A DNA stretch of 64,000 nt from Microtetraspora fusca. GTDB lineage: Bacteria > Actinomycetota > Actinomycetes > Streptosporangiales > Streptosporangiaceae. The DNA lies in the NCBI RefSeq assembly GCF_001570365.1, contig NZ_BBYK01000040.1, positions 227,915 through 291,914 on the forward strand, in the 5' to 3' direction. Positions 5,036 through 29,323 of the stretch are shown here, one piece after another. The notes under the pieces are model-generated. The model ran no database searches, had not been told where the DNA came from, and worked only from the letters and a program-made list of their open reading frames with translations. The position numbers and the translations under genes were made by a program. Position 1 is the stretch's first letter, and the number at the start of each line of letters is the position of its first letter.

Positions 5036-5050
5036 CGAGATACCGTCTCG
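5036..5050. promoter_or_regulatory. IclR-type palindrome A, upstream of the Rieske oxygenase operon
   Basis: CGAGATACCGTCTCG, with perfect 5-bp arms, lies 40 bp upstream of the Rieske alpha start. It is one of eight similar 15-mers in the locus. The 5056-5371 stretch beyond it, up to the cupin stop, holds no gene that I can support. Confidence 0.7.
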
Positions 5051-5371
5051 CAATGTGATGCTGGCCCGGAGCCTCGTGGAATGTCAAGAGGGTCCGGCTC
5101 ATCCCGGTCCAGGGGAAATCCACCCCGCAAAGGCCGCAGCCCGGACACGTCCGCCACGGCGCGAGAGCGCAGGACCCGGGGAACGGACGCGACGCACGGG
5201 CACGCTCGCGCCCACCGCGCCCTGGCGCGTTCATCCCAGCGGCCGAGGACGAGCGTACGTGGCGTCAAGAAGCACGCCACAGCCGCCGGGACGGCGCCAC
5301 GGGCGGGCCGCCCCCGCCGGCCGGTCACATGCGGTCGGCGTGGGCGGCCGGTCACTTACCGGGGGTGCCGG

Positions 5372-5746
5372 TCAGGGGCCTTCCGGGAGCCAGACGGCGT
5401 CGCGGAAGTCCGCGCGCGGCGGCGCGAAGACGTCCACGTTGACGCACGGCCCCTCGACGGGCTCGATGTAGTGCTCGGCCCCCTTGGGCACCAGCAGCAT
5501 CGAGCCCGGCCCGAGGTCGTGGCCCACGCCGTCCACGTAGTACGTGCAGCGCCCCTGGTGGATGAGCACGAGCTGGTCGAAGTCGTCGTGGCGGTGCGGG
5601 TTGAGGGTCATCCCGACGGCCAGCTCGTGCCAGGCGAGCATGACCTCGTCGGTGGAGTACACCTTGCGCCGCACGCCCGGGCGGATCTCGGTCGCGGGAA
5701 TGTCGTCCCAGTTCACCGCGACGCCGTACAGGTGCTGGTTGAACAT
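5372..5746 (-). CDS. Cupin-domain protein
   Basis: A 124-residue single-domain cupin. Motif 1 appears as NPHRHDDFDQLVLIHQG and motif 2 as PKGAEHYIEP, giving a likely metal site of three His and one acidic residue. Small cupins in aromatic gene clusters act as ring-cleavage dioxygenases, isomerases or unknown accessory proteins. ATG 5746 has AAAGGAACGACC before it. A GTG at 5773 would instead overlap the aldolase stop as GTGA, so the start is not settled. It is the last gene of the FAH-amidohydrolase-aldolase-cupin run. Confidence 0.8.
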   Translation of the reverse strand: MFNQHLYGVAVNWDDIPATEIRPGVRRKVYSTDEVMLAWHELAVGMTLNPHRHDDFDQLVLIHQGRCTYYVDGVGHDLGPGSMLLVPKGAEHYIEPVEGPCVNVDVFAPPRADFRDAVWLPEGP

Positions 5747-5769
5747 GGTCGTTCCTTTCTCGGCGTCCT

Positions 5770-6588
5770 TCACGGGGCTGCCGGTTCCGGGCCGGGCAGG
5801 TCGCGCGCGACGGCCGCGGTGGCGCGCAGCGCGGATCCGAGGAACTGCAGGTCGGACCCGGCGATGATGTACGCGGCGGAGTCGAGCCCGGCCGCGCCGA
5901 TCAGCGCGGCCTCCGGGCGGGCCACCCAGCCGCCGAAGGCCGTGCCCGCCGCGCGGGCGGCCGCGGCGATCTCGGCGACCCGCGCCGCGAGCGCCGTCTG
6001 GTCGGCGGCCCCGGCGAGGCCGAGGCCGACCGCGAGGTCGGTGGTGCCGACGAAGGCGACGTCGAGGCCGCGGACGAGCTCCACGAGCGGGTCGCGGGTC
6101 GTCGCGGTCTCGATCTGCCCGACGAGCAGCGGCCGGTCACGCTCCTCGGCGGCCAGGTACGCGGCCAGGTCGGCCGCGCCGAAGCCCGCCGCCGGATGCG
6201 CCAGGCTGACGCTGCGCTCGCCGTACGGCGCGTACCGCGTGGCCGCGACCAGGGCGGACGTCTCGGCGGCGCGGGTCAGCATCGAGAGCTGGACTCCGGC
6301 CGCGCCGCTCTCCAGCACGCGATTGATCCACGCCGGGTCCACCGAGGGCACCCGGACCAGGGCGGGCAGCCCCGTGGCCGCGGCGTGCCGTACCAACGCG
6401 AGGACGGTCTCGTCGGTGAGGGCGGAGTGCTCGCCGTCCACCACGACGAAGTCGAACCCGGCCTGGCGGGCCAGGTCCACGCAGTCGATCGTCGGCAGCT
6501 TGACGAAGGTGCCGGTGATCCGGCGCCCGGCGGCGAGCGCGGCCCGCAGCCGCCGCCGGGCGTCCGTCACCGGGGTGGCCCAGGTCAC
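5770..6588 (-). CDS. HpcH/HpaI-type aldolase
   Basis: A 272-residue class II aldolase of the HpcH/HpaI family, which splits 4-hydroxy-2-oxo acids into pyruvate (or oxaloacetate-derived product) and an aldehyde. Hallmarks seen: the catalytic-loop segment FVVVDGEHSALTDE, the metal-ligand strands GQIETA (Glu) and VGTTDLAVGLG (Asp), and the PYGERSVSLAHPAAGFG active-site segment. The GTG at 6588 overlaps the amidohydrolase stop as GTGA, implying translational coupling; longer in-frame starts would overlap by 40 nt. It suits the last carbon-carbon cleavage of a meta-cleavage pathway. Confidence 0.85.
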   Translation of the reverse strand: MTWATPVTDARRRLRAALAAGRRITGTFVKLPTIDCVDLARQAGFDFVVVDGEHSALTDETVLALVRHAAATGLPALVRVPSVDPAWINRVLESGAAGVQLSMLTRAAETSALVAATRYAPYGERSVSLAHPAAGFGAADLAAYLAAEERDRPLLVGQIETATTRDPLVELVRGLDVAFVGTTDLAVGLGLAGAADQTALAARVAEIAAAARAAGTAFGGWVARPEAALIGAAGLDSAAYIIAGSDLQFLGSALRATAAVARDLPGPEPAAP

Positions 6589-7772
6589 CGGGATCCGGCC
6601 GGCTCCGCCGCCAGGCCGCGCCACGGGGTCGGCTCGACCTTGCGGCCCTTGTGCAGGATGAGGGCGGGCTCGAGCCGGGGCGCGACGATCGAGTTGCCCG
6701 CCGCGTCGGGCAGCACCGTCTCGTCGGTCTCAGCGAGCACCGTGACGTGGGCGGGGCCCCCTTCGACGAGGGTTCCGTACCCCTCGGTGTCGAGGCCGAG
6801 GACGCGGGCGGGGGCGATCGTCATGCGCGGCGCGATCTCGTCCATCGGCATGCCGAGCGCGAGCAGCTTGGCCGCGCTGGTGACCAGGTCGAACACCGGT
6901 CCGCGCCAGTTGCGTCCGCTGGTGTCGGAGGTGAGCAGGTCCGGGAGGAAGCCTTCGGCGATGGCCCGCCGGGCGACCTCGAAGCTGAGGTTGCTCTTGC
7001 CGTGCGCGCTGTCGAACAGCACGCCGCGCGCCCTGGCCTCCTGCACGGCGGGGATGACCTTGCCGTCGTCGAGGATGCCGTGCGGCTTGCCGGTGTAGCA
7101 GTGGGCGACGATGTCACCGGCGCGGAGCATCGGCAGCACGTCGGGCAGCGGCTCCTCGGTCTCACCGATGTGGACCATGAGGGGCAGGCCCGCCTCGTCG
7201 GCGAGTTCGAGCGACGTCTTCAGCAGGGACCGCCAGGCCGGGCCGACGACGTCCTCCGACAGCCGGATCTTGAAGCCGCGCACCACACCCGGGTTCTCCC
7301 TGGCCACGGCCAGCGCGTCCTCCGGGACCAGCGTCGCGGGGTTCAGCAGCTCTCCGAACCGGAAGTCGATCAGGCCGAGCACCGACACGTTGAGGAAGTT
7401 CACCAGCCGCATCTCGGCCCGGCCGACCACGTACGCGTCGAAGGCGGCGAACGTGGACGCGCCGACCGTGCCCGCGTCGGCGGCGGCGACCACTCCCCTG
7501 CGCAGGTGGGCCTCGTCCGGCGGCGCCCCCACCTTCGACACGTTCTCGAAGATGTGGGTGTGGCCCTCCACCAGGCCGGGGAGCACCCAGCGGCCGGAGC
7601 AGTCCACGACCTCCCGCGCCCGGTCCTTGGCGTCCTGGTCGAGGGACGGCGCGATCCGCGCGACCCGGTCGCCCGAGATCGCCACGTCGGCCACCGCGGA
7701 CGTCCCCGCCTCGGTGTCGAAGACGGTGCCGTTCGTCAGGACGAGATCGTAGGAAACATCTGTCTCGGTCAT
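6585..7772 (-). CDS. Amidohydrolase/deacetylase-type metallohydrolase
   Basis: A 395-residue amidohydrolase-superfamily TIM barrel resembling the dihydroorotase-like 'amidohydrolase/deacetylase' subgroup. Ligands can be placed: His71 and His73 in EGHTHIF, the probable carboxylated Lys168 in RGFKIRL, His201 in MVHIGE, His224 in VAHCYTG and Asp283 in TSDTSG, so a binuclear site is expected. AAGGAGATTCG precedes the ATG. It lies between the FAH-family gene and the aldolase in one operon. It probably hydrolyses an amide, lactam or lactone of the ring-cleavage product, but the substrate is unknown. Confidence 0.82.
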   Translation of the reverse strand: MTETDVSYDLVLTNGTVFDTEAGTSAVADVAISGDRVARIAPSLDQDAKDRAREVVDCSGRWVLPGLVEGHTHIFENVSKVGAPPDEAHLRRGVVAAADAGTVGASTFAAFDAYVVGRAEMRLVNFLNVSVLGLIDFRFGELLNPATLVPEDALAVARENPGVVRGFKIRLSEDVVGPAWRSLLKTSLELADEAGLPLMVHIGETEEPLPDVLPMLRAGDIVAHCYTGKPHGILDDGKVIPAVQEARARGVLFDSAHGKSNLSFEVARRAIAEGFLPDLLTSDTSGRNWRGPVFDLVTSAAKLLALGMPMDEIAPRMTIAPARVLGLDTEGYGTLVEGGPAHVTVLAETDETVLPDAAGNSIVAPRLEPALILHKGRKVEPTPWRGLAAEPAGSR

Positions 7773-7892
7773 CGAATCTCCTTGAGCGTGGAGACCCCGG
7801 CCTGTGGACGGGGGAGCCGGCGCGGCACGGTGCCGCGCGGCGGATGCGGAAAAGGCGAGTGACCCCGACGGGGCGTCGGGAAGCGGGCGAGG

Positions 7893-8738
7893 TCAGGAGT
7901 GGCCGGGAAGCGCCCGGTATCGGGTGCGCAGGGGCAGCACCCCCGGCACGGTGATCTCCACCTCGTCGCCCGCGCCGAGGAAGACCCGGCGGTCCTGACC
8001 CGTGCCCGCCGGGGTGCCGGTCAGCACCACGTCTCCGGGCTCCAGCACGGCGAAGTGCGAGATCCGCGAGACCAGGTCAGGCACCGGGAAGATCAGCTCG
8101 GCCGTGCTGGAGTCCTGGTGGACGACACCGTTGACGGTCCCGCGGACGGCGATGTCCTCGGGGTCGGGCACCGCGGACAGGTCGAGCACCGAGGCGCCGA
8201 GCGCGCCGAAGCCGGGGAAGCTCTTGGCCAGGGACGGCGTGCCGGTGGCCACCATGACGTCGCGGGCGGTCATGTCGTTCGCGGCGGTGACGGCGGCGAG
8301 GTGCTCCCACACCTGCTCGGGCCGTACGCGGGACATGCGGCGGCCGACGACGAAGGCGACCTCGGCCTCGTAGTCGATCTGGCTGGACCGGTCCTGCGGC
8401 AGCTCGACCTCCGCGCCCGGCGCCGACACGGCGGACAGGGCGCGCAGGAAGAGGATCGGCTCATCCGGCACCGGCCGCCCGGTCAGCTCGGCCTTGGAGT
8501 GGTAGTTCAGTCCGACGCCCCAGATCGCCCGCGTGCGGGCCAGCGGCGCCAGGAGCTCTCCTTCGAGGTCGGCCAGCGGAAGGCGGCGCAGCTCCCGCGC
8601 CCGCCGGGCGGGCGCGAAGCCCTCGCCCAGGGCGAGGAGTTCGGCGACGTCGCCGTACGGCAGGTCGAGGAGGACGACCTCCTGGTCCTCGACGCGGGCC
8701 AGCCCGCCGGGGGTGGCCACCAGGTTGAGCGCGGTCAT
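7893..8738 (-). CDS. Fumarylacetoacetate hydrolase family protein
   Basis: A 281-residue FAH-fold enzyme with the metal ligands Glu124 and Glu126 (IDYEAEVAF) and Asp155 (AANDMTARD), plus the C-terminal TGTPAGTG loop. Family members hydrolyse acylpyruvates or hydrate and decarboxylate 2-oxo-dienoates, i.e. lower steps of catechol meta-cleavage. The ATG at 8738 overlaps the stop of a 29-codon leader ORF as ATGA. A much longer in-frame extension to 8975 is low-complexity and crosses an operator, so I rejected it. A 120-bp gap separates it from the amidohydrolase. Confidence 0.87.
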   Translation of the reverse strand: MTALNLVATPGGLARVEDQEVVLLDLPYGDVAELLALGEGFAPARRARELRRLPLADLEGELLAPLARTRAIWGVGLNYHSKAELTGRPVPDEPILFLRALSAVSAPGAEVELPQDRSSQIDYEAEVAFVVGRRMSRVRPEQVWEHLAAVTAANDMTARDVMVATGTPSLAKSFPGFGALGASVLDLSAVPDPEDIAVRGTVNGVVHQDSSTAELIFPVPDLVSRISHFAVLEPGDVVLTGTPAGTGQDRRVFLGAGDEVEITVPGVLPLRTRYRALPGHS

Positions 8739-8824
8739 CGGGCCGCCGCCGTGGACCGGCCGTACGCCGGGGTGAGGGGGACGGTGATCAGGGCCACGAG
8801 GGCGCCCACGCGTCCGGTTCGCAT
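8735..8824 (-). CDS. Putative 29-residue leader peptide coupled to the FAH-family gene
   Basis: This short ORF has a strong ribosome site (AAGGAGCCTGC before the ATG at 8824), and its TGA overlaps the start of the FAH-family gene as ATGA, an arrangement for translational coupling. The peptide begins MRTGRVGALVALITVP and is hydrophobic in the middle. No family is recognised. It could be a regulatory leader or a small membrane peptide. The support is the spacing, ribosome site and overlap only. Confidence 0.5.
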   Translation of the reverse strand: MRTGRVGALVALITVPLTPAYGRSTAAAR

Positions 8825-8967
8825 GCAGGCTCCTTGGTTCCCGTCGCCGCCCACGCCCACCGCCGTCGGAAAGCGGAGCCGTTCGGCGGTACGGGCGTGG
8901 GCGACCGGGAGGGGGGTTGGAGGGATACGCACGAACGTAAGAGGAAGATTCCACCCATGTCAATATG

Positions 8968-8982
8968 CGAAACAATATCTCG
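8968..8982. promoter_or_regulatory. IclR-type palindrome B, upstream of leader/FAH operon
   Basis: CGAAACAATATCTCG, flanked symmetrically by ATG on the left and CAT on the right. It lies 144 bp upstream of the leader ORF and downstream of the IclR gene on the same strand. The rest of the 8825-9228 interval shows no credible gene and probably serves as the promoter region. Confidence 0.65.
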
Positions 8983-9228: not shown

Positions 9229-10032
9229 TCAGGCAGGCGTGGAGGCGGTGCCGCCCAGTTCGGCGGACAGGCGGTGCGAGAGGGCGCGCAGCGCCTCCGT
9301 CACCTGGTGCTCGGTCTCTCCGGCCAGGGCGGCCACCGTGCTCACCACCGCCATCGAGGCGACGATCTGGTCGCCCTCGAAGATCGGCGCGGCGATCACC
9401 CGCACGCCGTGGTCGGCGGGCGAGTTGACCGCGACGCCGGTGCGCCGCACCTCGTCGATCAGATCGCGCAGCTCGGGCGTGGTACGGAGTTTGCGCGCCA
9501 GCCCGGGAACCTCCCCCACCGGCAGGTACGCGCAGAAGACGCGGCCCTGTGCCGAGCGGAGCAGGTCGAGGGTGGAGCCGGTGCGCACGCTGAGCCGGAT
9601 GTCGCCGTCGGTGTTGTCCACGCAGCGCACGACGACCGGGCTCTCGCCGTTCCAGACGCTGAGCACGGCGGTCTGGTTGGTCTCTCGGACCAGCAGGTCG
9701 AGGTACGGCCCGGCCGCGGCGGCGATGGGCAGCCCGGCGCGGGCGGCCGCCTCCAGGGCGAGGATCTCGGGCCCCAGCGTGTAGGTCGCCTGCTGGGCGT
9801 CGTACCGGAGCAGGTTGGCCGCCCGCAGCGCCCGCGTGTAGCGGTGCGCGGTGGGCTTGCTGGTGCCGAGGCGGGCGGTGATCTCGCTCAGGCTGAGCCG
9901 GGGGCGTTCGACGGTGAACGCGCTCAGGATCAGCGCCGCGCGCCGTACGGTCTGGATCGCGGGGGCCTCGTCGTTCGCTTCGGGCGACGCACCGGACTGG
10001 TTCGCGTCGTCGCGCCGCCCTGGCCCCGGCAT
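9229..10032 (-). CDS. IclR-family transcriptional regulator (first copy)
   Basis: A 267-residue IclR protein: an N-terminal winged helix-turn-helix (about residues 25-85, recognition segment LGTSKPTAHRYTRALR) followed by the effector-binding GAF-like domain (LGPEILALEAAARAG onward). IclR proteins bind short palindromes near catabolic promoters and respond to aromatic acids or their breakdown products. GGAGGAGACGGG precedes the ATG. Its recognition segment is nearly identical to that of the second IclR at 13207, so the two may share the eight palindromes of this locus. No copy of the palindrome is visible just upstream of this gene. Confidence 0.93.
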   Translation of the reverse strand: MPGPGRRDDANQSGASPEANDEAPAIQTVRRAALILSAFTVERPRLSLSEITARLGTSKPTAHRYTRALRAANLLRYDAQQATYTLGPEILALEAAARAGLPIAAAAGPYLDLLVRETNQTAVLSVWNGESPVVVRCVDNTDGDIRLSVRTGSTLDLLRSAQGRVFCAYLPVGEVPGLARKLRTTPELRDLIDEVRRTGVAVNSPADHGVRVIAAPIFEGDQIVASMAVVSTVAALAGETEHQVTEALRALSHRLSAELGGTASTPA

Positions 10033-10135
10033 CCCGTCTCCTCCGTCGAGTACCCCTTACGTCGGATGGGACTCTATCCAGGGACGCGCCGGAACGCATG
10101 CGACTTGACGTTCAACCTCGGAATCAACGCGACAT

Positions 10136-11167
10136 TCACACCGCATCCGACGAATGCCCCGGAACCGTGCTGAACGCCGGGTTGATGAGCGGCGCCAGGT
10201 TATTGACCGCCGCGGCGGCCTCTCCGAACCCGACGGAGATCAGCCGGACCTTCCCGTCGTAGTCGCTGATGTCGCCGGCGGCGAAGACCCGCTCCAGGTT
10301 GGTCCGCATGGACCGGTCGACCAGGACGTGCCGCTTGCGCAGGTCGAGGCCCCACTTCTGGACCGGGCCGAGGTCGGCGATGAAGCCGAGCGCGGCCACG
10401 ACGGTCTGCGCGGGCAGGGTGATCCGCTCGCCGCCCCGGACCCGCTCGACGGTCACCTCGCCGATCCCGTCGCCGCCGGTGATGTCGGCCACCTCGAACG
10501 GCGTGAGCACCCGTACGGACGACGCGCGCAGCCGGGTGACGCTGTGCTCGTGGGCGCGGAAGGCGTCCCGGCGGTGGACCAGCGTGAGCGACCGGGCGAT
10601 CGGCTCCAGGGCGAGCGCCCAGTCCACGGCCGAGTCGCCGCCGCCGACCACCACCACGTCCTGGCCGGCCAGCTCGTCCAGCTTCCGGACGAAGTAGCGC
10701 AGGCCGCGCCCGAGGTACTCGCTGCCCACGGGCAGTTCCCTGGGGGTGAAGGTGCCGATGCCGCCGGTGAGCAGCAGCGCCTTGGCCCGCACCCGGGTGC
10801 CCGCGTCGGTGACGACCTCGACCGCGTCGGCGTCGTGCCGCAGTTCCAGGGCGCTCTCCCCCAGCAGGTAGAGCGGCTCCGCCTGGCTCGCCTGGGCGAC
10901 CAGGGCGTCGACCAGCGCCTGTCCCTTCACGGCCGGATATCCGGCGATGTCGAAGATGTCCTTCTCGGGGTACAGCGCGGCCACCTGGCCGCCGGGCTCC
11001 GGCAGGGAGTCGATCACGGCGACGGACATGCCGCGAAACCCGGCGTAGTAGGCGCCGTACAGCCCGGCGGGGCCGGCGCCGACGATGACCAGGTCCACCT
11101 CGTGAACCGGGCGTGGCCCGCCGCTCTCTCCCGGCTCGCCGATGCCGTACGCGTCGGAGGCGGTCAC
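10136..11167 (-). CDS. Ferredoxin-NADP+ reductase, thioredoxin-reductase-like
   Basis: A 343-residue two-domain flavoprotein. The FAD fingerprint GAGPAGLY is near residue 30 and the NADPH fingerprint VGGGDSAVDWAL is mid-protein; there is no redox-active CxxC as in true thioredoxin reductases, and the C-terminal DGKVRLISVGFGEAA stretch fits the TrxR-like ferredoxin reductase group. The GTG at 11167 overlaps the ferredoxin stop as GTGA. It should pass electrons from NADPH to the adjacent 7Fe ferredoxin and thence to the Rieske oxygenase or another oxygenase of the locus. Confidence 0.87.
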   Translation of the reverse strand: MTASDAYGIGEPGESGGPRPVHEVDLVIVGAGPAGLYGAYYAGFRGMSVAVIDSLPEPGGQVAALYPEKDIFDIAGYPAVKGQALVDALVAQASQAEPLYLLGESALELRHDADAVEVVTDAGTRVRAKALLLTGGIGTFTPRELPVGSEYLGRGLRYFVRKLDELAGQDVVVVGGGDSAVDWALALEPIARSLTLVHRRDAFRAHEHSVTRLRASSVRVLTPFEVADITGGDGIGEVTVERVRGGERITLPAQTVVAALGFIADLGPVQKWGLDLRKRHVLVDRSMRTNLERVFAAGDISDYDGKVRLISVGFGEAAAAVNNLAPLINPAFSTVPGHSSDAV

Positions 11168-11475
11168 GACGGGTCCCCGGAGACGGCGGGGTGATCGGCC
11201 CCCGTCCGGCCGACTTTGCGCGCACCCCCGGGGGAGCCGAGGTCGGCGAAGAACTCGGTGTTGATCTGGGCGAATCCGGCCAGGTTCGGCGGCAGGTCCT
11301 CGTGGTGGTAGATCGACGTCACCGGGCAGACCGGTTCGCATCGGCCGCAGTCCACGCACTCGTCCGGATGGATGTACATCATCCGGTCTCCCTCGTAGAT
11401 GCAGTCGACCGGGCACTCCTCGACGCACGATTGGTCCTGCACGTCCACGCACGCGTCGGTCACGACGTAGGCCAT
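11164..11475 (-). CDS. 7Fe ferredoxin (3Fe-4S plus 4Fe-4S)
   Basis: A 103-residue ferredoxin of the FdxA type. Cysteines at 9, 17 and 21 (C-x7-C-x3-CP) bind the 3Fe-4S cluster with Cys50; Cys25, 40, 43 and 46 serve the 4Fe-4S cluster (CVDCGRCEPVCP). The start ATG 11475 has AGGAGGACTG in front. It is the first gene of a unit with the ferredoxin reductase and lies divergent from an M20-like gene across an operator. Its C-terminal tail of about 35 residues carries no motif. Confidence 0.92.
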   Translation of the reverse strand: MAYVVTDACVDVQDQSCVEECPVDCIYEGDRMMYIHPDECVDCGRCEPVCPVTSIYHHEDLPPNLAGFAQINTEFFADLGSPGGARKVGRTGADHPAVSGDPS

Positions 11476-11659: not shown

Positions 11660-11674
11660 CGAGATGCCATCTTG
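11660..11674. promoter_or_regulatory. IclR-type palindrome C, divergent ferredoxin/M20 promoters
   Basis: CGAGATGCCATCTTG (arms match 5 of 6) lies in the 271-bp divergent gap between the ferredoxin start at 11475 and the M20-like start at 11747, so one bound dimer could control both directions. Confidence 0.65.
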
Positions 11675-11746
11675 GATTGAGTTACCATCAGTGCGATGCG
11701 GGCCGCCCGCCCCATCGCGGAGCCCGAGCGGAACTCTGGAGAGCCC

Positions 11747-13084
11747 GTGACGACCGACCCCTTGGAAGGCCTGCGGAGCGCCGCGCACGGCGCGATCGAC
11801 GGCGAGCGGATCGTCGAGGCGGTGCGGCTGCTCGCCGCCGGCCCGAGCCCGCGTGGAGGCGAGCGCGCCGCCGCCGACCGGCTCATGGAGTGGGCGCGGA
11901 CGCGGTGGCCCCGAATCTCGTGGCGTCGCGACGCGATCGGGGCCGCGGGCGCCAATCTCGTGGCCACATCCGCCCAGGGAGATGCCGGCCACCCCCCAGG
12001 CGGCCGGGAACTGCTCGTCTACTCCCACCTGGACACGTCCCTGCCCGGCGACCCGGAGCGGGACCGGTGGACGACGGGGGTCGACGCTCCCCCGGCCCCG
12101 CTGAGCGTGGACCACGAGTCGGGCACGCTCACGGGGTTCGGCCTCGGCGTGGCGCGGGCCCCCGCCGCGGCCGCGCTCGCCGGGTACGCGGCCGCCGTGG
12201 CGGCACTGCGGGACGCGGGCGTCCCCCACCGGCTCACGCTGCTGCTGGCCGGCGGCGGCACGCACGCCTCCCCGTTCGCGGCGACCCCGGAGTCGGCCGC
12301 GCCGGTCGGCGTCGAGGAGTACCTCCGCTCCGGCCCGCGCCCGGACGCCGCCGTCGTGGCCAAGTGCGGCCCGCCCGGAATCCTGTACGAGGAGCCGGGG
12401 GCGGCCTTCGTCCGGGTGCGGCTGGGCACCGCGTACCGTCCCGTGCTGGCCAGGGACGCCGCGCCGCCGGCCGGCGGGCTGATCGCGCACCTCGGCGAGG
12501 TGATCGGCGTCCTGGAGCGGTGGCGGGAACGGCACGTCGCCGCCCGCGCCGGGGTCGGCGGCCAGATCGCGGCCGAGGCCGGGATCGGCGCGGTACGCGG
12601 CGGCCTGGCGGCCAAGCCGGATCTGCTGCCCGGCGTCGTCGAGCTGCACCTCTACCTGGTCACCGTGCCCGGGGACGACGTCGCGCGGATCGCCGACGAC
12701 ATCCGGGCCGCGCTGGAGACCGGCCTGCGCGGCGGCCCGCTGGAGGGCTGCGCGCTGTCCGTGGCGGCCCGGACGGCCCACCCCTCGGGCGCGACGCCGC
12801 AGGACGCGTCCGTCGTACGGCACGCCGCCGCCGCGTGGGCCCGCGAGCACGGGGCCGCGCCCCCGCCCATCTCGGGCTGGAAGGGCTCGACCGACGGCGT
12901 GGTGCTGCGCGGCCACGGCGTCCCCACCGTGCGGGTCGGCCCCGCCGTACGCGCCGATCCGGCAGACCCTCGGAGAGATGTCATCGAGTTGGACACTTTG
13001 CTGCGATTCGCCCGGATTTATAGCGACATCGTCGTGCGGCATGTCGTTTACGGCGAATCAGTCATCGAAACGTCTCACTCCTGA
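11747..13084 (+). CDS. Degenerate M20/ArgE-type metallopeptidase-like protein
   Basis: A 445-residue protein with the layout of M20 aminoacylases/deacetylases. The first metal motif is present (SHLDTS, His94 and Asp96) and the late SGWKGSTDGVVLRGHGVPTV block is recognisable. The segment that should contribute the bridging Asp and catalytic Glu is altered: residues 131-140 read FGLGVARAPA where M20 enzymes have a G-x-x-D-x-K/R-G pattern, and 167-173 read LAGGGTH without the Glu-Glu pair. It may be inactive or catalyse something else. GTG 11747 has a GGAG site. It is divergent from the ferredoxin gene under a shared palindrome. Confidence 0.65.
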   Translation: MTTDPLEGLRSAAHGAIDGERIVEAVRLLAAGPSPRGGERAAADRLMEWARTRWPRISWRRDAIGAAGANLVATSAQGDAGHPPGGRELLVYSHLDTSLPGDPERDRWTTGVDAPPAPLSVDHESGTLTGFGLGVARAPAAAALAGYAAAVAALRDAGVPHRLTLLLAGGGTHASPFAATPESAAPVGVEEYLRSGPRPDAAVVAKCGPPGILYEEPGAAFVRVRLGTAYRPVLARDAAPPAGGLIAHLGEVIGVLERWRERHVAARAGVGGQIAAEAGIGAVRGGLAAKPDLLPGVVELHLYLVTVPGDDVARIADDIRAALETGLRGGPLEGCALSVAARTAHPSGATPQDASVVRHAAAAWAREHGAAPPPISGWKGSTDGVVLRGHGVPTVRVGPAVRADPADPRRDVIELDTLLRFARIYSDIVVRHVVYGESVIETSHS

Positions 13085-13138: not shown

Positions 13139-13153
13139 CAAGACGATGTCTCG
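13139..13153. promoter_or_regulatory. IclR-type palindrome D, upstream of second iclR gene
   Basis: CAAGACGATGTCTCG (arms match 5 of 6) lies 53 bp before the second IclR start, consistent with autoregulation. Confidence 0.6.
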
Positions 13154-19401: not shown

Positions 19402-19416
19402 CGAGATGGCATCAAC
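19402..19416. promoter_or_regulatory. IclR-type site G (half-conserved), upstream of oxidoreductase-transporter operon
   Basis: CGAGATGGCATCAAC keeps the left arm and centre of site F exactly but its right arm has drifted. It lies 24 bp before the GTG of the oxidoreductase. A second partial copy (TTGCGAG at about 19379) lies just upstream. Confidence 0.5.
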
Positions 19417-21890: not shown

Positions 21891-22005
21891 CCCCCCGTCC
21901 CGGCCCGCGGATCCCCACTGTCCCCCGCTTCGGCCGGGACCCACCACCCGACAACCCACCGCGAACTCCAGAAGATCGAGCCCCCAGAAGATCGAGAGGA
22001 TCGTT

Positions 22006-23103
22006 ATGGCCGGAAACTACCGCGCGGGCACTGCCGCCGGTGCGATGATCGCCTGTTTCGGCGCGATCGCCCTGACCGGATGCGCGAGCAACGACGCGAC
22101 CGCGGTCAAGGCTCCGGCCGCGGCCGGCGACAGCACGGCCGGCGGCGGCTCCCAGACCGGCCAGCCGGACGTCAACGGCGACGGCAAGGTCGTCATCGGG
22201 GTGCTCAGCCCCGGCGACATCAACGACGGCGGCTACTACCAGAGCTTCGTGGACACGGCGGAGAAGTTCGCCACGTCCCAGGGCTGGACGCTGATCAAGC
22301 GTGGCAGCGTCAACACCAGCGACGCGCTCAACGCCGCGCGTGCGCTCTGCCAGCAGAAGGTGGACATGATCGCGCTGGGCGCCTCGGAGCTGCGGGACGC
22401 GATCCCCGCCTCCGAGGAGCCGGTCTGCGGCAACACCGCGTGGTACGTGCCGTCCTCCGACAACATCCCGCAGACCCCCAAGATCATGCTCTCGGTGGAC
22501 GACGCGAACCAGAGCCTGCTGGCCGCCGGGTACGCCGCCGGGCTGCTGCTCGAGGAGCGCGGCGACAAGAAGGCCGGGTTCATCACCGGCCCCGAGGTGG
22601 ACTTCACCCAGTCCGCTGTCCGGGCGTACCGCGCGGGCATCCGCCTGGTGGTGCCCGACGCGACCGTGGTGACCACCTTCACCGGCGACCTCAACGACTC
22701 GGCGAAGGCCAAGGAGGCGATGCAGGCGCAGATCAGCCAGGGCGTCAAGGTGGTGTACCCCTACCTCGGGGGCGCCACGAACGCCGCCACCGAGCTGGCC
22801 AACTCGGCCGGGGTGTACACCCTGACGCCGGGCACCGACCAGTGCGCCTCCACCAAGCCGAAGTTCGACGTCTCGGTGATGTTCAGCCCCGGCGACTACT
22901 TCGCCTCCGCGCTGGAGAGCTTCGCCGAGGGCAAGCTGCAGATGGGCGTCAAGAAGGTCTGGCAGCTCGGCGTCGACCCGTACCCGACGGTGAAGCTGTG
23001 CGGCGACAAGCCGGAGATCAAGAAGAAGCTCGACGCGTTCATGGCGGACGTCGGCGCCAAGAAGTTCGACCCGGCGGCCGAGGTCAAGAGGCTCGGATCC
23101 TGA
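22006..23103 (+). CDS. BMP-family substrate-binding lipoprotein
   Basis: A 365-residue Bmp/Med-family periplasmic-type binding protein that presents a ligand to the adjacent ABC importer. The signal peptide ends in lipobox LTGC with the lipidated Cys at residue 26. The mature part starts with a Gly/Ser-rich linker and then KVVIGVLSPGDINDGGYYQS, the family's ligand-pocket signature. Known ligands of the family include nucleosides, riboflavin and related heterocycles. The 115-bp gap upstream contains a 12-bp direct repeat (21969-21980 and 21985-21996) and the site GAGAGGATCGTT. It is followed after 1 nt by the ATPase gene. Confidence 0.9.
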   Translation: MAGNYRAGTAAGAMIACFGAIALTGCASNDATAVKAPAAAGDSTAGGGSQTGQPDVNGDGKVVIGVLSPGDINDGGYYQSFVDTAEKFATSQGWTLIKRGSVNTSDALNAARALCQQKVDMIALGASELRDAIPASEEPVCGNTAWYVPSSDNIPQTPKIMLSVDDANQSLLAAGYAAGLLLEERGDKKAGFITGPEVDFTQSAVRAYRAGIRLVVPDATVVTTFTGDLNDSAKAKEAMQAQISQGVKVVYPYLGGATNAATELANSAGVYTLTPGTDQCASTKPKFDVSVMFSPGDYFASALESFAEGKLQMGVKKVWQLGVDPYPTVKLCGDKPEIKKKLDAFMADVGAKKFDPAAEVKRLGS

Positions 23104-23104
23104 C

Positions 23105-24772
23105 ATGACGACAGTTGACGAGCGGGCGAGGGAGCTGACCCCGCCATCGACACCCGCTCTGCGGCTGCGGGGCGTCAGCAAGCGCTACGGCCCGGTCGTC
23201 GCCTCCGACAACGTGGATCTCGACGTCAACCACGGCGAGATCCACGGGCTGCTCGGAGAGAACGGCGCGGGCAAGTCGACGCTGATGAAGATCCTCCTCG
23301 GGCTGGTTCAGCGGGACTCCGGGACGATCATGCGCGGCGACACGCCCGTGGCCGTACGCGATCCGCAGGACGCCGTGGCGCTGGGCATCGGCATGGTGCA
23401 CCAGCACTTCAGCCTGATCGACGCGCTGACCGTCTGGGAGAACGTCATCCTCGGCGACACCGGGCGGATCGACCGCGCCGCGGCGTGCCGCCAGGTGGAG
23501 GAGGTGTCCCGCAGGTACGGCCTGCCGATCGACCCGACGGCCCGCGTCGAGCGGCTCTCCGCCGGTGAGCGGCAGCGGGTCGAGCTGATCAAGTGCCTGC
23601 GCCGGGACCCGTCCGTGCTCATCCTCGACGAGCCCACCTCGGTGCTGACCCAGGCGGAGTCGGCGGAGCTGTTCACCGTCCTGCGCCACGTCGTACGCGC
23701 CGAGAACCGCGCGGTGATCCTGATCAGCCACAAGCTGGCGGAGATCACCGCGGCCACCGACCGCGTGACGGTGCTGCGCAAGGGGAAGGTGGTCTTCCAC
23801 AGCCCGACCGGCGACACCACGCCGCCGGAGCTGGCCCGCTGGATGGTCGGCCGGGACGTGTCGCTGCGCGCGGAGGGGGCGGCGCTCGGGATGCTCCCGG
23901 TGGACGGCGCCGCGCCGTCCGGGGACCCCCCGGCGCAAACCACGGCGGAATCCCCGTCAGGAGCCGAAGCGGAAGCCGTGACTCCGGCGGAAACCACGGC
24001 GGAACCCGCGGCCGGCGCCGGATCCGGGATCGCGCCGGCCCTGCGGCTGCGCGACCTGACGGTCGTGATCGACGGCGTGACCGTCCTGTCCGAGCTGAGC
24101 CTGGACGTCGCCCCCGGCGAGATCGTCGGCCTGTACGGCGTCGAGGGCAACGGCCAGTCCACGCTCGGCGACCTGCTCTCCGGCCTCGTCCTCCCCTCCT
24201 CCGGCACGGTCGAGCTGACCGGGCGGCCGGTGGAGCTGGAGCGCCCGGGGGCGCTGCACCGGGCCGGGCTCGGCATCATCCCCGAGGACCGGCACAGCTC
24301 CGGCGTCGTCCTGGACATGAGCGTCGCCGAGAACCTGGTGATGAAGTCCATCGGCGACGTCAGCGGGCGCGGCTTCGTCAGCCGCAGGAAGATGCACGCC
24401 GTCGCCCGCCGCCTGGCGGCCGAGTTCAACATCGTCGCCCCGTCCCTGGACGCCCCGGTACGGAGCCTCTCCGGGGGCAACCAGCAGCGCGTCGTCCTCG
24501 CCCGCGAGCTGTCGGCCGGGCCCTCCGTGCTCGTCGCCGCACAGCCCACCCACGGGCTCGACGTCGGCGCGATCGAGGACATGTACCAGCGGCTCCGGGA
24601 CGCGGCGTCAGAAGGCGTGGCGGTGCTGCTGATATCCACCGAACTGGAGGAGGTCATGGCTCTGGCGTCCCGCATCGCGGTCATCTGCTCGGGCCGGATC
24701 ACCGGCGTCCTGCCCGCCGCCGAGGCCACCGCCGAACGGCTCGGCATGCTGGTGGGAGGGGTGGCCGCGTGA
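23105..24772 (+). CDS. ABC transporter ATP-binding protein with two ATPase domains (BMP/nucleoside type)
   Basis: A 555-residue tandem ATPase. Domain 1 is complete: Walker A GENGAGKST, signature LSAGERQRVEL and Walker B VLILDEPTS. Domain 2, after an Ala/Glu-rich linker (about residues 260-300), has an altered Walker A (GVEGNGQST, Gln in place of Lys), signature LSGGNQQRVVL and a Walker B without Asp-Glu (VLVAAQPTHGLD). That degenerate second site is the norm in this transporter family. The gene is 1 nt after the binding protein and overlaps the first permease as GTGA. Confidence 0.93.
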   Translation: MTTVDERARELTPPSTPALRLRGVSKRYGPVVASDNVDLDVNHGEIHGLLGENGAGKSTLMKILLGLVQRDSGTIMRGDTPVAVRDPQDAVALGIGMVHQHFSLIDALTVWENVILGDTGRIDRAAACRQVEEVSRRYGLPIDPTARVERLSAGERQRVELIKCLRRDPSVLILDEPTSVLTQAESAELFTVLRHVVRAENRAVILISHKLAEITAATDRVTVLRKGKVVFHSPTGDTTPPELARWMVGRDVSLRAEGAALGMLPVDGAAPSGDPPAQTTAESPSGAEAEAVTPAETTAEPAAGAGSGIAPALRLRDLTVVIDGVTVLSELSLDVAPGEIVGLYGVEGNGQSTLGDLLSGLVLPSSGTVELTGRPVELERPGALHRAGLGIIPEDRHSSGVVLDMSVAENLVMKSIGDVSGRGFVSRRKMHAVARRLAAEFNIVAPSLDAPVRSLSGGNQQRVVLARELSAGPSVLVAAQPTHGLDVGAIEDMYQRLRDAASEGVAVLLISTELEEVMALASRIAVICSGRITGVLPAAEATAERLGMLVGGVAA

Positions 24773-25947
24773 CCGCCTCCTCGCCCGGCGCCCCGTCGGG
24801 GACCGGCCGCCGCCTGCTCGGTCTGCTGACCCCGCGCCCGTCCGGCTGGCAGACCCCGGCGGCCACCGCGGTCGCCGTGGTGGCCGCGCTGGCCCTCTCC
24901 TCGGCCCTCATCACGCTCACCGGCGGCTCGCCGTCGGCGTCCGTCCAGGCCCTCTTCGAGGGCAGCATGGCCGACTGGACGGCGTGGACCTCGACGCTGC
25001 TCTACACCGCGCCGCTGCTGCTCGTCGCGGTCGGCGCGTGCGTCAGCGCCCGCTCCGGGTCGTTCAACATCGGCCAGGAGGGGCAGGTGCTCATCGGCGC
25101 GCTCGCCGCCGCCTGGGTCGGCCTGCGCCTCGCGATCAACGGACCCGCGCTGCTCGTGATCATGCTGCTGGCCGCCGCGCTGGCGGCGGGCGCGTGGGCC
25201 GGTCTCAGCTCGCTGATGCACCGGCTGCGCGGGGTCAACGTCGTCGTCAGCACCATGCTGATGACGTTCGTCGCCCAGCAGGTCGTCGCGTACGCGGTGA
25301 ACATGCCGTGGCTGCTGCAGGAGTCGCGGGTCGGCAACGCGCCGGTCTCCCCGCAGTCGAACCCGCTGCCGCCCTCCGGCCTGCTGGGCTCGTTCGGCGA
25401 GTATCCCGGCCTGCAGATCAACGGCGGCCTGATCCTCGCCGTGGCCGCCGCCGTGCTCGCCGCGGTGGCCATCACACGCACCCCCTGGGGCTTCAGGCTG
25501 ACGATGCTCGGCCGCAACCCCCTCGCCGCCAAGCACGCGGGCGTACGCGTCAACGCGCTGGGCGGCCTGGCTCTGGCGATCTCCGGCGCGCTGGCCGGCC
25601 TGGCCGGGGCGGTGCTGCTGGCCAGCCCCGTCGGCGTCAACCGGCTCCAGCCGGGCATGGCCATGAACATCGGCTGGGACGGTCTGCTGGTCGCCCTGGT
25701 CGCGCGGAACCGGCCGCTGGCGGCCATGCCGGTCGCGCTGCTGTTCGGCGTACTGCGCTCCGGAGGCGGCTTCCTCGCCGCGACCGGGGTGCCGTCGTTC
25801 CTGGTCGACGTGGTCAAGGCGCTGCTGGTGCTCGCCTTCGTCGCGCCGCCCGTGGTCGTCGCCCTGGCCAGGCGGCGCCGTTCCGGAGGCCGTCCGGCGG
25901 GAGCCCGCCGGGAGGCCGCGCCCGCCGCAGAGGAGGCCATCGCGTGA
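24769..25947 (+). CDS. ABC transporter permease (BMP/nucleoside type), first
   Basis: A 392-residue membrane subunit with about nine hydrophobic segments and the conserved SFNIGQEGQVLIGALAAAW loop near residue 100, the hallmark of YufP-like permeases. GTG 24769 overlaps the ATPase stop as GTGA, and its own stop overlaps the next permease the same way. It forms the pore with the second permease. Confidence 0.92.
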   Translation: MTASSPGAPSGTGRRLLGLLTPRPSGWQTPAATAVAVVAALALSSALITLTGGSPSASVQALFEGSMADWTAWTSTLLYTAPLLLVAVGACVSARSGSFNIGQEGQVLIGALAAAWVGLRLAINGPALLVIMLLAAALAAGAWAGLSSLMHRLRGVNVVVSTMLMTFVAQQVVAYAVNMPWLLQESRVGNAPVSPQSNPLPPSGLLGSFGEYPGLQINGGLILAVAAAVLAAVAITRTPWGFRLTMLGRNPLAAKHAGVRVNALGGLALAISGALAGLAGAVLLASPVGVNRLQPGMAMNIGWDGLLVALVARNRPLAAMPVALLFGVLRSGGGFLAATGVPSFLVDVVKALLVLAFVAPPVVVALARRRRSGGRPAGARREAAPAAEEAIA

Positions 25948-26858
25948 GCGCAGCGGACGACATCTCGACGATCCTGTCCAGCGGGATCAGGCTCACCGTG
26001 CCGCTGGCGTTCGCCGCGTGCGGCGAGTACCTGGCCGAGCGGGCCGGGACGATGAACATCTCCCTTGAGGCGATGATGCTCGGCGCGGCCTTCGGCTCGG
26101 TGGCCACCGCCTCGGCGACCGGCAGCGCGACCACGGGCCTGGTGGCGGGCGTGCTGATCGGCCTGCTGATCGGGTTCGTGCACGGCAACCTGGCCCACCG
26201 CCTGGAGGTCAACACGTTCGTGGTCGGCCTGGTGCTCAACGCCCTCGTGCTCGGCCTGACCAGCTACCTGATCACGATCAGCTCCTTCGACTCCCACCAG
26301 GTGACGCAGGTGAGCGTCCCCTGGCTGCGGGACATCCCCCTGATCGGCCACCCGCTGTTCGTCGAACGCTGGCCGGTCTACCTGCTGCTCCTCATCGTCC
26401 CGCTGACCTGGTGGCTGGTGGAGCGCAGCAGGTGGGGCCTCGAACTGCGGGCCGTCGGCGAGCAGCCGCAGGCGGCCGACGTCACCGGCATCCGCGTCAA
26501 CCTGCGCCGCCGCCAGGCGCTGCTGTGGTGCGGCGCGCTGGCCGGGCTCGGCGGCGCCTACCTGGCGGTGGGCGAGGTCGGCTCGTTCAACCAGAACATG
26601 ACGGCCGGACGGGGGTACATCGTCATCGCGGCGGTGATCTTCGGCGCGTGGCGGCTGGGCCGCACGCTGCTCGGCTGCGTGCTGTTCGGGCTCGCCGACG
26701 CCATGCGCCTGGCGCTGCCGGCGCTGGGTCTGACCATGAACTCGCAGCTCCTGGTGGTCGCGCCGTACCTGCTGGCGCTGGTCGCGATGCTGGTCTTCAC
26801 GACCAGGAACCGCGAGCCGAAGTCCCTCGGGCAGCCCTTCGTACGGGGCTCGACCTGA
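25944..26858 (+). CDS. ABC transporter permease (BMP/nucleoside type), second
   Basis: A 304-residue membrane subunit of the YufQ type. Near the N-terminus it shows the paired signature AERAGTMNISLEAMMLGAAF, followed by about eight membrane segments and the QALLWCGALAGLGGAYLAV segment. GTG 25944 overlaps the first permease by 4 nt. It completes the importer: one lipoprotein, one double ATPase and two permeases. Confidence 0.92.
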   Translation: MSAADDISTILSSGIRLTVPLAFAACGEYLAERAGTMNISLEAMMLGAAFGSVATASATGSATTGLVAGVLIGLLIGFVHGNLAHRLEVNTFVVGLVLNALVLGLTSYLITISSFDSHQVTQVSVPWLRDIPLIGHPLFVERWPVYLLLLIVPLTWWLVERSRWGLELRAVGEQPQAADVTGIRVNLRRRQALLWCGALAGLGGAYLAVGEVGSFNQNMTAGRGYIVIAAVIFGAWRLGRTLLGCVLFGLADAMRLALPALGLTMNSQLLVVAPYLLALVAMLVFTTRNREPKSLGQPFVRGST

Positions 26859-26910
26859 CCCGATCCACATGTCCACCCCTTGATTGATCACTCGAAATCG
26901 GAGGAGAACC

Positions 26911-27363
26911 ATGAGCGGTCTGACCCAGGCACGCTGGACGCACGTCGCGCTGCCGACCGGCGACCTCGACAAGGCCATCGACTTCTACACCTCGCTGACG
27001 CCGCTGGTCGTCGTGGAGCGCTTCCGGGACGCCGACGGCGAGAGCGCCTGGCTGTCCAACGACCGGCAGGTCGAGACGCCGATGGTGCTGGTGCTGGTCT
27101 CGTTCAACAAGGACAAGGGCGGGCAGCTCGGCCTGCTCACGCCGTTCGCGCACATCGGCATCGAGGTGCCCGAGCGCGGTGACGTGGACGCCATCGCCGA
27201 GCGGGCGCGCGAGCTGGGCTCCCTGCACTGGGAGCCCCGGGACATGCCCGACCCGGTCGGCTACATCTGCGCCCTGAAGGACCCGGACGGCAACGTCATC
27301 GAGATCTCGCACAACCAGCAGGTGTTCGACACGGTGCGCAAGCTGTGGGCGAACCCCTCCTGA
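26911..27363 (+). CDS. VOC (glyoxalase/bleomycin-resistance fold) protein
   Basis: A 150-residue single-unit VOC protein (HVALPTGDLDKAIDFYTSL early and LKDPDGNVIEISHN near the C-terminus). Candidate metal ligands are His10 and the Glu of VIEISHN, so it may act as an isomerase, glyoxalase-like lyase or dioxygenase. ATG 26911 has GGAGGAGAACC directly in front; a longer in-frame start lacks a site. It lies 52 bp after the permease, probably in the same operon. Confidence 0.8.
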   Translation: MSGLTQARWTHVALPTGDLDKAIDFYTSLTPLVVVERFRDADGESAWLSNDRQVETPMVLVLVSFNKDKGGQLGLLTPFAHIGIEVPERGDVDAIAERARELGSLHWEPRDMPDPVGYICALKDPDGNVIEISHNQQVFDTVRKLWANPS

Positions 27364-27764
27364 GCGCCGAGCTCACCCGGGCCGCGGTCGCGCGGTACGT
27401 CGACGCGCTCAACGCGCACGACGCCGACGCGATCGCGGCCTGCGTGAGCCCGGACTTCGTCAACGAGCACACCTCCCCGCTCGGCCGGAGCGTCACCGGG
27501 CGGGACGGCTACCGGGCCAACCTCACCGGTTTCCTGGCCGACTTCGCCGACCTGCACTACGCGGTCGAGGACCTGATCGTGGAGGACTGCCGCGCGGCGC
27601 TCGCCTACCGCATGTCGTTCCGGCTGCTCTCCGCGGGGGGCAAGCCGGTCGCGGTGCGCGGTGTGTTCCGCTTGCAGGTCGGCGCGCACGGCCTGATCAC
27701 GCACCGTACGGACTACTGGGACAGCGGCGAGGTGCGGCGCCAGCTCGCCGACCCGGCGCCGTGA
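27345..27764 (+). CDS. SnoaL/NTF2-like ester-cyclase-type protein
   Basis: A protein of about 139 residues with the SnoaL-like fold: an N-terminal helix (RAAVARYVDALNAHDADAIAA), the early HTSPLG turn and a C-terminal strand HRTDYWD typical of polyketide-cyclase-like or ketosteroid-isomerase-like proteins. The GTG used here overlaps the VOC stop by 19 nt and no better start is visible, so the first few residues are uncertain. It is the last gene before a strong hairpin. No reaction can be assigned. Confidence 0.72.
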   Translation: MGEPLLSAELTRAAVARYVDALNAHDADAIAACVSPDFVNEHTSPLGRSVTGRDGYRANLTGFLADFADLHYAVEDLIVEDCRAALAYRMSFRLLSAGGKPVAVRGVFRLQVGAHGLITHRTDYWDSGEVRRQLADPAP

Positions 27765-27884: not shown

Positions 27885-28961
27885 TCAGTTGCCCCACTCC
27901 TGGTTCGGGACGACCGCCTTGGCGATGCGGAAGGCGCCGCCCTCCACCGGCTTCTTCTCCTCGGCGTCGCGCGCCTTGACGACGTTCTTGCCGAAGCCCT
28001 CCACCAGCGGACGGCCCACGTCGCGCTTGAGCCACAGGCGGAGCAGGTGGCGGCGGCGCTCGGGCTCCGGCCAGTCGACGTACTCGGTGCGCGAGTGCAG
28101 GGCGGCGTAGTTCAGCAGCCACTGCACGTCACCCGGCTGGAAGTCCATGTCGAGCGCGAGCCCCTGCTCCTGGCTGATCTCGTCGTAGAGGTGCAGCAGC
28201 TCGATCTGGGCGTCGGTCAGCGGCGGCACGCCGTCGTACTTCTGCGCCGAGAAGATCATCGAGCTGCCCGCGTACGTGCTGAAGATGCCGTTCACGTAGC
28301 TGCAGATCGGGGACACGTAGGTGTCGGCGGGCGCGTCCGGGTCCTGGCCCCGCCAGTCCCAGTGCCAGGGCTCGAACAGCAGCGGGGCGAGGTCGGGCCG
28401 CCGGCGCAGGATCTCGTTGTAGATCGCCGTGCCGCTCACCAGGCTGCTGGCGCCGCCCTCCTTCGCGGCGCGCAGGCACATGAGCGCCACGACGTCCGAG
28501 CTGTCGGAGTGGAACGGCAGCCGGTCGCGGACCCGGGACGGCAGGGCGCCGGGGTCGTCCAGCGTCTTGTTGGACGTGGCGATGACGTGGTCGAGCACGT
28601 CGCCGAGCTGGTTCTGCTCCATCGGCGTGCCGAGGTGCAGGCCCATCACGAAGAAGATCGCGCCGGCGACGGCGTCGCCGTACTCCTCCGTGCGCAGGCC
28701 GCGCACCAGCACGAAGCCGCGCCCGGCGTCCATCTGCCGCGCGCACTCGTCGATCAGACCGCGCGCCGCGTCCAGCGGGTAGTCCGCGGCGACCACGGTC
28801 CGCAGGTCGGGGTCGGCGGCGACGAACTTGCGGCCGACCACCTCCAGCTCCTCGCGCTCGGCGTCGCTGAGAACGTAGATCCATTCGGTGGAGCCGGCCA
28901 GCTCGTCACCGCGCCATGCGGAAGGACCGGTGATCGGGGACAGGGAGACTTCTGTGGTCAT
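27885..28961 (-). CDS. TauD/TfdA-family Fe(II)/2-oxoglutarate dioxygenase
   Basis: A 358-residue dioxygenase of the TauD superfamily, which couples 2-oxoglutarate decarboxylation to hydroxylation of a substrate. The iron ligands can be placed as His151 and Asp153 (PFHSDSSDVV) and His289 (AALHSRTEYVD), with the 2-oxoglutarate-binding Arg in HLLRLW. It stands alone on the minus strand after the convergent hairpin, with a 348-bp upstream region that carries palindrome H, so it probably belongs to the same regulon. It is longer than TauD itself (about 280 residues). Confidence 0.87.
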   Translation of the reverse strand: MTTEVSLSPITGPSAWRGDELAGSTEWIYVLSDAEREELEVVGRKFVAADPDLRTVVAADYPLDAARGLIDECARQMDAGRGFVLVRGLRTEEYGDAVAGAIFFVMGLHLGTPMEQNQLGDVLDHVIATSNKTLDDPGALPSRVRDRLPFHSDSSDVVALMCLRAAKEGGASSLVSGTAIYNEILRRRPDLAPLLFEPWHWDWRGQDPDAPADTYVSPICSYVNGIFSTYAGSSMIFSAQKYDGVPPLTDAQIELLHLYDEISQEQGLALDMDFQPGDVQWLLNYAALHSRTEYVDWPEPERRRHLLRLWLKRDVGRPLVEGFGKNVVKARDAEEKKPVEGGAFRIAKAVVPNQEWGN

Positions 28962-29117
28962 GATGATGCACTCCGAGTACTTGGGGGTCGCGTCTCAGAA
29001 GGCGGTGACAGCTCGGAAGGGCCGTTACAGCCGGGATGCGAAGGTCCGAACAGGCGAGGACGGCAAACGACGCCGCGGGACCGCTCGATGCGGCGCCGCT
29101 CGCCTTCGATGGAGAGC

Positions 29118-29246
29118 TCAGAAAGGAGTCTGCGGATCTCCCGCGGCGGTGCCGGGGCGCATGCCCTTCCGCGGCGGGCTCACTCGCATCGGGTCCTCCC
29201 AGCCGGACAGGGTCGCCGCGAAGCCGGGTACGGCTACGTGGATCAT
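29118..29246 (-). CDS. Candidate 42-residue leader ORF upstream of the TauD-type gene
   Basis: The ATG at 29246 is preceded by GCAGGAGAGCGCC, a good ribosome site, and lies 62 bp downstream of palindrome H. The peptide begins MIHVAVPGFAATLSGWED. It ends 156 bp before the TauD-type gene, so it is not coupled to it. No homology is recognised; codon support is thin. It is listed because another operator-linked unit (8735-8824) has a similar small ORF. Confidence 0.3.
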   Translation of the reverse strand: MIHVAVPGFAATLSGWEDPMRVSPPRKGMRPGTAAGDPQTPF

Positions 29247-29308
29247 GGCGCTCTCCTGCGGTGGTCGACTTTCCGCCACGCTAGACCGGCACAGATGGTT
29301 CCGTCAAT

Positions 29309-29323
29309 AGAGACATCGTCTCG
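29309..29323. promoter_or_regulatory. IclR-type palindrome H, upstream of the TauD-type gene
   Basis: AGAGACATCGTCTCG (arms match 5 of 6) marks the right edge of the catabolic locus. The remainder of 28962-29596 holds only the candidate leader ORF and no other gene that I can support. Confidence 0.6.

Follow-up and report, generated by a model that had tools for sequence, protein, structure and literature searches.

How are the genes of this Microtetraspora fusca locus controlled, and do they belong to a single pathway? In the 64,000-nucleotide stretch analysed here (the window), genes for a Rieske oxygenase, a P450, dehydrogenases, a transporter and a TauD-family dioxygenase are gathered around two genes for IclR-type regulators, referred to as IclR1 (9229–10032) and IclR2 (13207–14004). 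A first-pass annotation had proposed that eight copies of one palindrome unite these genes in an IclR regulon. This proposal is supported, since in other genera and families the sites recur in front of the same genes. The eight palindromes are quite probably the operators of one IclR-type regulon centred on IclR2, and the cluster genes likely form one pathway.

All eight coordinates carry the motif CGAGAYNNYRTCTCG, as had been claimed. The sites at 5036 and 16506 match it perfectly, those at 8968, 11660, 13139, 17690 and 29309 have one mismatch each, and the site at 19402 has three mismatches, with one half intact. Each site is located between genes or just 5' of a deduced gene start, which agrees with the earlier statement that the sites occupy gaps upstream of catabolic genes. 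The longest open frames of four genes, encoding the Rieske protein, the FAH hydrolase and two alcohol dehydrogenases (ADH1 and ADH2), cross their sites from TTG or GTG codons. The later starts adopted for these genes were deduced from relatives and from promoter hexamers.

At up to three mismatches, the window contains 107 matches against a shuffle mean of 178.6. Since such matches fall below the shuffles in GC-rich DNA, only close matches are informative. The genome-wide test was a pattern search at no more than one mismatch over 9,023,190 bases. It gave 35 places (hand count of 53 strand rows), seven of them in the 24.3-kb stretch; the only two perfect copies of the genome are both inside it. 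Over the whole genome, the number of matches hardly differs from that of the reversed pattern used as control (24 forward and 29 reverse vs 23 and 22), so what is unusual is how the matches cluster, not how many there are. The 28 outside places correspond to 0.076 expected sites per stretch of this length, and the Poisson probability of at least seven is about 3e-12, or about 3e-8 once the choice of stretch is allowed for. The supposition that the motif is equally frequent elsewhere, named at the outset as fatal to the regulon, did not hold. The site matrix scores the seven cluster sites at 19.9–25.8, the 19402 site at 16.8 and the 28 outside places at 19.1 or less, a circular comparison, since the eight window sites themselves make up the matrix.

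The sites are conserved in relatives. Genomes, contigs and loci are given below by working numbers (G, C and L). Relatives were fetched by IclR2 alone, without the motif. The 16 loci obtained, from Microtetraspora, Streptosporangium and Micromonospora, have 33 places at no more than one mismatch (hand count) vs 5.0 expected, and 23 of these are in four Microtetraspora loci. The Rieske protein (E up to 1e-120) is found in three of 394 genomes of the class, including its own genome. A further family has it in 18 of 300 genomes, which apparently include three of the loci named Micromonospora, and a third family in one of 17. Upstream regions were measured from the alignment start and scanned at a score of at least 14 with a matrix made from the window sites only; 3 of 1000 Markov-chain sequences reach this score. 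In 23 loci of other genera, a site precedes 107 of 156 genes that are first in a transcription unit, against 2 of 196 other cluster genes; in Microtetraspora, the numbers are 34 of 36 and 0 of 32. This set of 23 omits L041, L042 and L044, which apparently correspond to G716, G680 and G706, and the IclR3 loci L035–L037, L040 and L043, which are without the cluster. Starts taken from over-extended frames had been tried and were discarded, many sites being missed (68/154 first vs 3/200 other genes; in Microtetraspora, 27/36 vs 0/31).

Within the 23 loci, sites were found before the genes for the Rieske protein (20/20), ferredoxin (17/17), M20-type hydrolase (17/20), aldehyde dehydrogenase (ALDH; 12/13), ADH1 (11/12), P450 (9/11), TauD (8/9), ADH2 (6/13), FAH (4/20) and IclR2 (3/21). 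For ADH2, six of the seven misses have a technical cause: sites are present in G501, G475, G546, G562, G555 and G520, but, like the ADH1 site of G726, they lie deeper in the aligned frame than the scan reached. In most Micromonosporaceae loci, FAH has no site of its own and directly follows the reductase gene. Most FAH misses are thereby explained, because FAH sits there inside the ferredoxin unit. The TauD, P450, ALDH/ADH1 and ADH2 genes of Micromonosporaceae are reordered yet retain their sites. A conserved regulon follows from the presence of sites before orthologous first genes in other genera despite the rearranged gene order. Eight other whole genomes were searched with the pattern; among the matches listed, which came from four of them (G095, G726, G475 and G555), the Rieske operator is the single perfect place in each of the four.

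As a separate observation, the pattern at no more than one mismatch is about twice as frequent as its reversed control in the Micromonosporaceae genomes G475, G501, G534 and G555 (17–26 vs 8–12 strand matches). Further regulon members outside the cluster are possible in these four.

Both IclR genes were confirmed, with the recognition helices LGTSKPTAHRYTRALR and LGTSKATAHRYTKALR, and both proteins have the N-terminal HTH_IclR and the C-terminal IclR_C domains above the Pfam cut-off. They are 55% identical, and by eye the C-terminal part is lower. An IclR protein of this clade occurs in every fetched cluster whose contig reaches the region. Among 55 proteins of the clade, the IclR2-type helix SK[AP]TAHRYTKALR is retained across families. 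Of the 17 IclR1 proteins from Micromonosporaceae, 15 now have ISRATAHRYARALR as their helix, with the motif unchanged. The distant clusters of G444, G505 and G212 have one IclR only in the 20–50 kb fetched, with the IclR2-type helix; the motif persists there, and the IclR1 type was not found in these stretches. Since the IclR2-type helix hardly varies and these three clusters retain it, it is the best candidate for reading the palindrome. IclR2 is thus likely the main reader, and IclR1 may share the sites, though its helix has drifted. In the tree, IclR1 forms one group (98/100).

A third paralogue of the genome (C48:4809-5588, L125) is 79% identical to IclR2 and has the same recognition helix. 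It has a half-conserved site with a score of 14.4 before its own gene, and no catabolic-cluster gene was recognised around it on C48. From 17 matches at 26–34% identity in the same genome, seven more distant IclR proteins were compared: they have other helices, and no site of at least 14 lies within 1.5 kb of them.

Ten transcription units, comprising 22 genes and a small open reading frame (ORF), were deduced from gene strand, gaps and the places of the sites. Their limits and several start codons are provisional:

3674–4996, minus strand: Rieske ring-hydroxylating oxygenase alpha subunit (PF00355 and PF00848), probable start ATG 4996
5036–5050: Rieske operator, perfect palindrome, just 3' of TTGACA-N18-CAGCAT (about 5087–5058, minus strand)
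5372–8930, minus strand: putative operon of FAH hydrolase, EF_0837-like amidohydrolase, HpcH/HpaI aldolase and cupin; FAH start tentative
8968–8982: operator of the FAH operon, 4 bp upstream of TTGACA-N18-TACGTT (8963–8934, minus strand)
9229–10032, minus strand: IclR1 regulator, HTH_IclR and IclR_C above cut-off, presumably the last gene of the ferredoxin operon
10136 to about 11107, minus strand: thioredoxin-reductase-like flavoprotein, probably ferredoxin reductase, below all cut-offs shown
11185–11475, minus strand: ferredoxin FdxA (NCBIfam NF045480 above cut-off)
11660–11674: operator common to the divergent ferredoxin operon and M20 gene, ferredoxin TTGACA-N18-TACTGT 4 bp away
11696–13084, plus strand: M20-type metallohydrolase (PF01546), start possibly GTG 11747
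13139–13153: operator before iclR2, probable autoregulation, weak in many relatives
13207–14004, plus strand: IclR2 regulator, HTH_IclR and IclR_C above cut-off, likely main reader of the palindrome
14197–16464, minus strand: self-sufficient P450 (P450, reductase and 2Fe2S; PF00067, PF00175, PF00111), real start probably ATG at about 16410
16440–16468, minus strand: conserved P450 leader element, candidate H-type pseudoknot
16506–16520: P450 operator, perfect, covering the −35 of TTGTCT-N17-TAGACT
16579–17661, minus strand: zinc alcohol dehydrogenase ADH1 (PF00107/PF08240), probable start GTG 17661
17690–17704: operator common to the divergent ADH1 and ALDH genes, overlapping the ALDH TTGACA
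17739–19220, plus strand: aldehyde dehydrogenase (PF00171)
19402–19416: half-conserved operator of the ADH2-transporter operon
19442–27764, plus strand: putative operon of ADH2, TRZ/ATZ-type amidohydrolase, BMP lipoprotein, ABC ATPase, two permeases, VOC and SnoaL-like proteins
27885–28961, minus strand: TauD-family dioxygenase (PF02668)
29118–29246, minus strand: conserved 42-codon ORF ending RPGTAAGDPQTPF, between operator and tauD
29309–29323: operator of the small ORF-tauD unit, 1 bp upstream of TTGACG-N18-TAGCGT

In addition, a perfect palindrome CTACCGGAGCGGTAG is present at about 19354, beside a TTGACA upstream of ADH2; it is possibly a site of another regulator.

In four units, the operators keep a fixed spacing to promoter-like hexamers. 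The −35 starts 4 bp after the operator in all seven FAH and all 21 ferredoxin promoters, and 1 bp after it in eight of nine TauD promoters (5 bp in G444). At P450, it lies within the operator (−8) in 14 of 14 promoters. Of 17 ALDH promoters, 16 have a TTGACA that overlaps the operator, and none has TANNNT at 16–19 bp. The spacing test took the sites judged clear and left out FAH of G444 and G505 and P450 of G688 (16.1) and G716 (11.6). By eye, the Rieske operator follows a TTGACA-N18-TAGCAG-like promoter in most of the relatives' sequences shown. Since the operators are positioned at about −48 to +10 and overlap or abut promoter-like hexamers, ligand-relieved repression is favoured.

Under such repression, IclR2 would bind the palindromes as a dimer or a dimer of dimers, and IclR1, made from the ferredoxin operon, would probably read the same or overlapping sites. 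Without inducer, IclR would cover or abut the promoters of the ten units, its own gene included, and keep them off. A compound of the pathway, bound in the IclR_C domain, would release IclR. The release would switch on together the BMP-type ABC uptake, oxygenation by the Rieske, P450 and TauD enzymes, dehydrogenation and the hydrolytic and aldolase steps. The regulon defines, with an internal negative control, which genes make up an uncharacterised breakdown pathway shared by several actinomycete families, and its regulators, operators and promoters are now named for direct testing.

Several points weigh against this reading. No site above 14 was found at M20 in three loci, at P450 in G212 and G716, at TauD in G212, at ALDH in G505 and at FAH in 16 of 20 loci, and the FAH sites of G444 and G505 are by eye without TTGACA at +4. 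The iclR2 site is weak in many relatives, with scores of at least 14 in 3 of 21 and at least 12 in 14 of 21, which is a real weakness of the autoregulation claim; a half-conserved palindrome is present about 20–60 bp before many of their iclR2 genes. The counts are not independent because many relatives belong to one family, and some loci may share one source genome. Furthermore, support is weak for the tree positions of the single IclR proteins, next to IclR1 for G444 and G505 (84/45) and next to IclR2 for G212 (93/27). Either paralogue could thus be the ancestral or essential one; for these three proteins IclR2 is a best-match label, and they may predate the duplication. Finally, an activator could act at FAH, ferredoxin and TauD, since the sites there lie just upstream of the −35.

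This last point is the basis of dual control, in which IclR would activate FAH, ferredoxin and TauD (operator centred at about −48 to −44) and repress Rieske, P450, ALDH and itself. It is consistent with the operator standing 4 or 1 bp before the −35 at the three units, in contrast to the Rieske operator, which by eye is downstream of the likely −10. The nearest NCBIfam subfamily of the window IclR proteins is PcaR/PcaU/PobR (TIGR02431), and this subfamily contains activators. However, the window proteins reach 78.3 and 86.4 bits, far under its cut-off of 284.75, and are not members. Promoters with consensus-like TTGAC[AG] and TANNNT and a 17–18-bp spacer should moreover need no activator. Dual control is considered unlikely. 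Alternatively, IclR1 and IclR2 would share operators while each responds to its own ligand, so that control would be graded or depend on two signals; this is a serious possibility, although somewhat short of an even chance. The near-identical helices of proteins that diverge elsewhere, above all by eye in the C-terminal part, fit this arrangement, as does the joint retention of both iclR genes in Streptosporangiaceae clusters and in the Micromonosporaceae clusters reaching the region, except G444, G505 and the partial locus L039. On the other hand, the G444, G505 and G212 stretches keep the motif with IclR1 undetected, and the change of the Micromonosporaceae IclR1 helix left the motif as it was.

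It is very improbable that the palindromes belong to another regulator that is merely co-conserved, for example of the PucR or TetR type. Genes of both types are present in or beside the G475 cluster, but neither is among the annotated cluster genes of the window, where the same sites occur. The 15-bp layout of the motif is that of IclR operators, and the clade's IclR accompanies every cluster whose region was reached. Chance in a palindrome-rich, GC-rich stretch could be suspected from the three-mismatch matches staying under the shuffled mean and from the genome total near the reversed-pattern control. Its probability is negligible, given the clustering in 24.3 kb and the conservation at orthologous positions, the latter of which already refutes it.

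Neither window IclR reaches the cut-off of any named NCBIfam subfamily. PcaR/PcaU/PobR, the best-scoring one for both, control aromatic catabolism. The closest solved sequence relative of IclR2 is KdgR (PDB 5y6i, E 4e-18), which regulates a sugar-acid regulon; the KdgR model NF011671 (cut-off 275) gives the window proteins 53.1 and 54.7. For the operators of group 2 IclR regulators, PMC8222616 gives the motifs as TGRAACA-N1-2-TGTTYCA. The window sites have the same odd 15-bp palindrome and half-site layout, and in both systems the sites are mostly close upstream of gene starts and control catabolic clusters (PMC8222616). The length and most half-site positions fit, and one key position differs (A to G): the window core is GAGAY/RTCTC vs GRAAC/GTTYC in group 2, mainly an A-to-G change per half (PMC8222616). 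Unlike the window, with single sites over ten units, that paper predicts tandem sites for 94 of 181 orthologous groups (PMC8222616). The regulon is therefore regarded as IclR-type with a variant operator, because the layout is shared and the core differs. Since the operator differs mainly at one half-site position and the helix is nearly invariant, the system offers a clean test of the rules of IclR protein-DNA contact. The library of papers that was searched has none with both Microtetraspora and IclR.

The ARO microcompartment loci of Micromonospora and Streptosporangiales, as described in PMC10470539, have an IclR-type regulator next to an aromatic-type pathway for which the upper substrate is not known. 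In the same taxa, IclR adjoins catabolic genes in the window as well; unlike those loci, the window has no shell gene (PMC10470539). A link to ARO microcompartments was rejected on this ground, PF00936 being found in the genome only at C56:88408-89785. Inspection by eye of 24 ORFs from the G475 and G688 gaps, six of which were run on Pfam, revealed no shell gene, and no site scoring 14 was found in the 19.9 kb fetched around the C56 genes. That C56 region (L128) has two shell genes with BMC domains near ORFs that by eye resemble an aminotransferase, a permease and an SDR protein. The locus resembles the RMM type of microcompartment.

As regards the substrate, the similarity of ALDH, FAH and HpcH to HpaE, HpaG and HpaI stays under the cut-offs and does not identify it. 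The G475 cluster (L078:4342-5682, 9544-10458; L095:11041-12300) has in addition an FmdA/AmdA-family amidase gene divergent from Rieske, a ribokinase-like gene, which is under its equivalog cut-off, and a PucR-type regulator gene. Similar amidase and kinase ORFs were seen by eye in G688. The ribokinase-like and formamidase-like genes of G475 hint at a nucleoside-like compound, which proves nothing.

Two further conserved elements have no library match, the P450 leader in Rfam and a small ORF before tauD in Pfam. The leader is a 29-nt element between the operator and the P450 start. Across 16 sequences from two families it is identical or differs at one position, and it is recognisable in a third family. 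At up to three mismatches, it occurs once in its own genome; of 394 genomes in the class, three have it, and these are also the ones with the Rieske gene. Its stems CCCAG/CTGGG and GCGCGG/CCGCGC are predicted to be able to form an H-type pseudoknot. Covariation is suggestive and statistically weak: the three distinct sequences show one compensatory change (A-U to G-C) and one broken pair, a result reached by 177 of 500 shuffles. An Rfam search of positions 3000–30000 with E up to 2 gave no family match to the leader and one sub-threshold match elsewhere. A P450 N-terminus or a leader peptide was considered and rejected, the frame stopping early in some relatives and being out of frame in G212 (by eye). 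The element might act as a very small leader that binds a compound of the pathway. A wider scheme, in which one operator code is read by three paralogous IclR proteins, one of them unlinked, and RNA-level control is added through the pseudoknot, is doubtful.

The ORF upstream of tauD has 41–46 codons and ends, across families, with RPGTAAG[DN]PQTPF in the window and in eight of the eight relatives examined (G444 read by eye); these relatives omit G212, where TauD is without a site. Two versions of it gave no Pfam match. If translated, the 42-codon protein encoded ahead of TauD would add one more uncharacterised component to the pathway.

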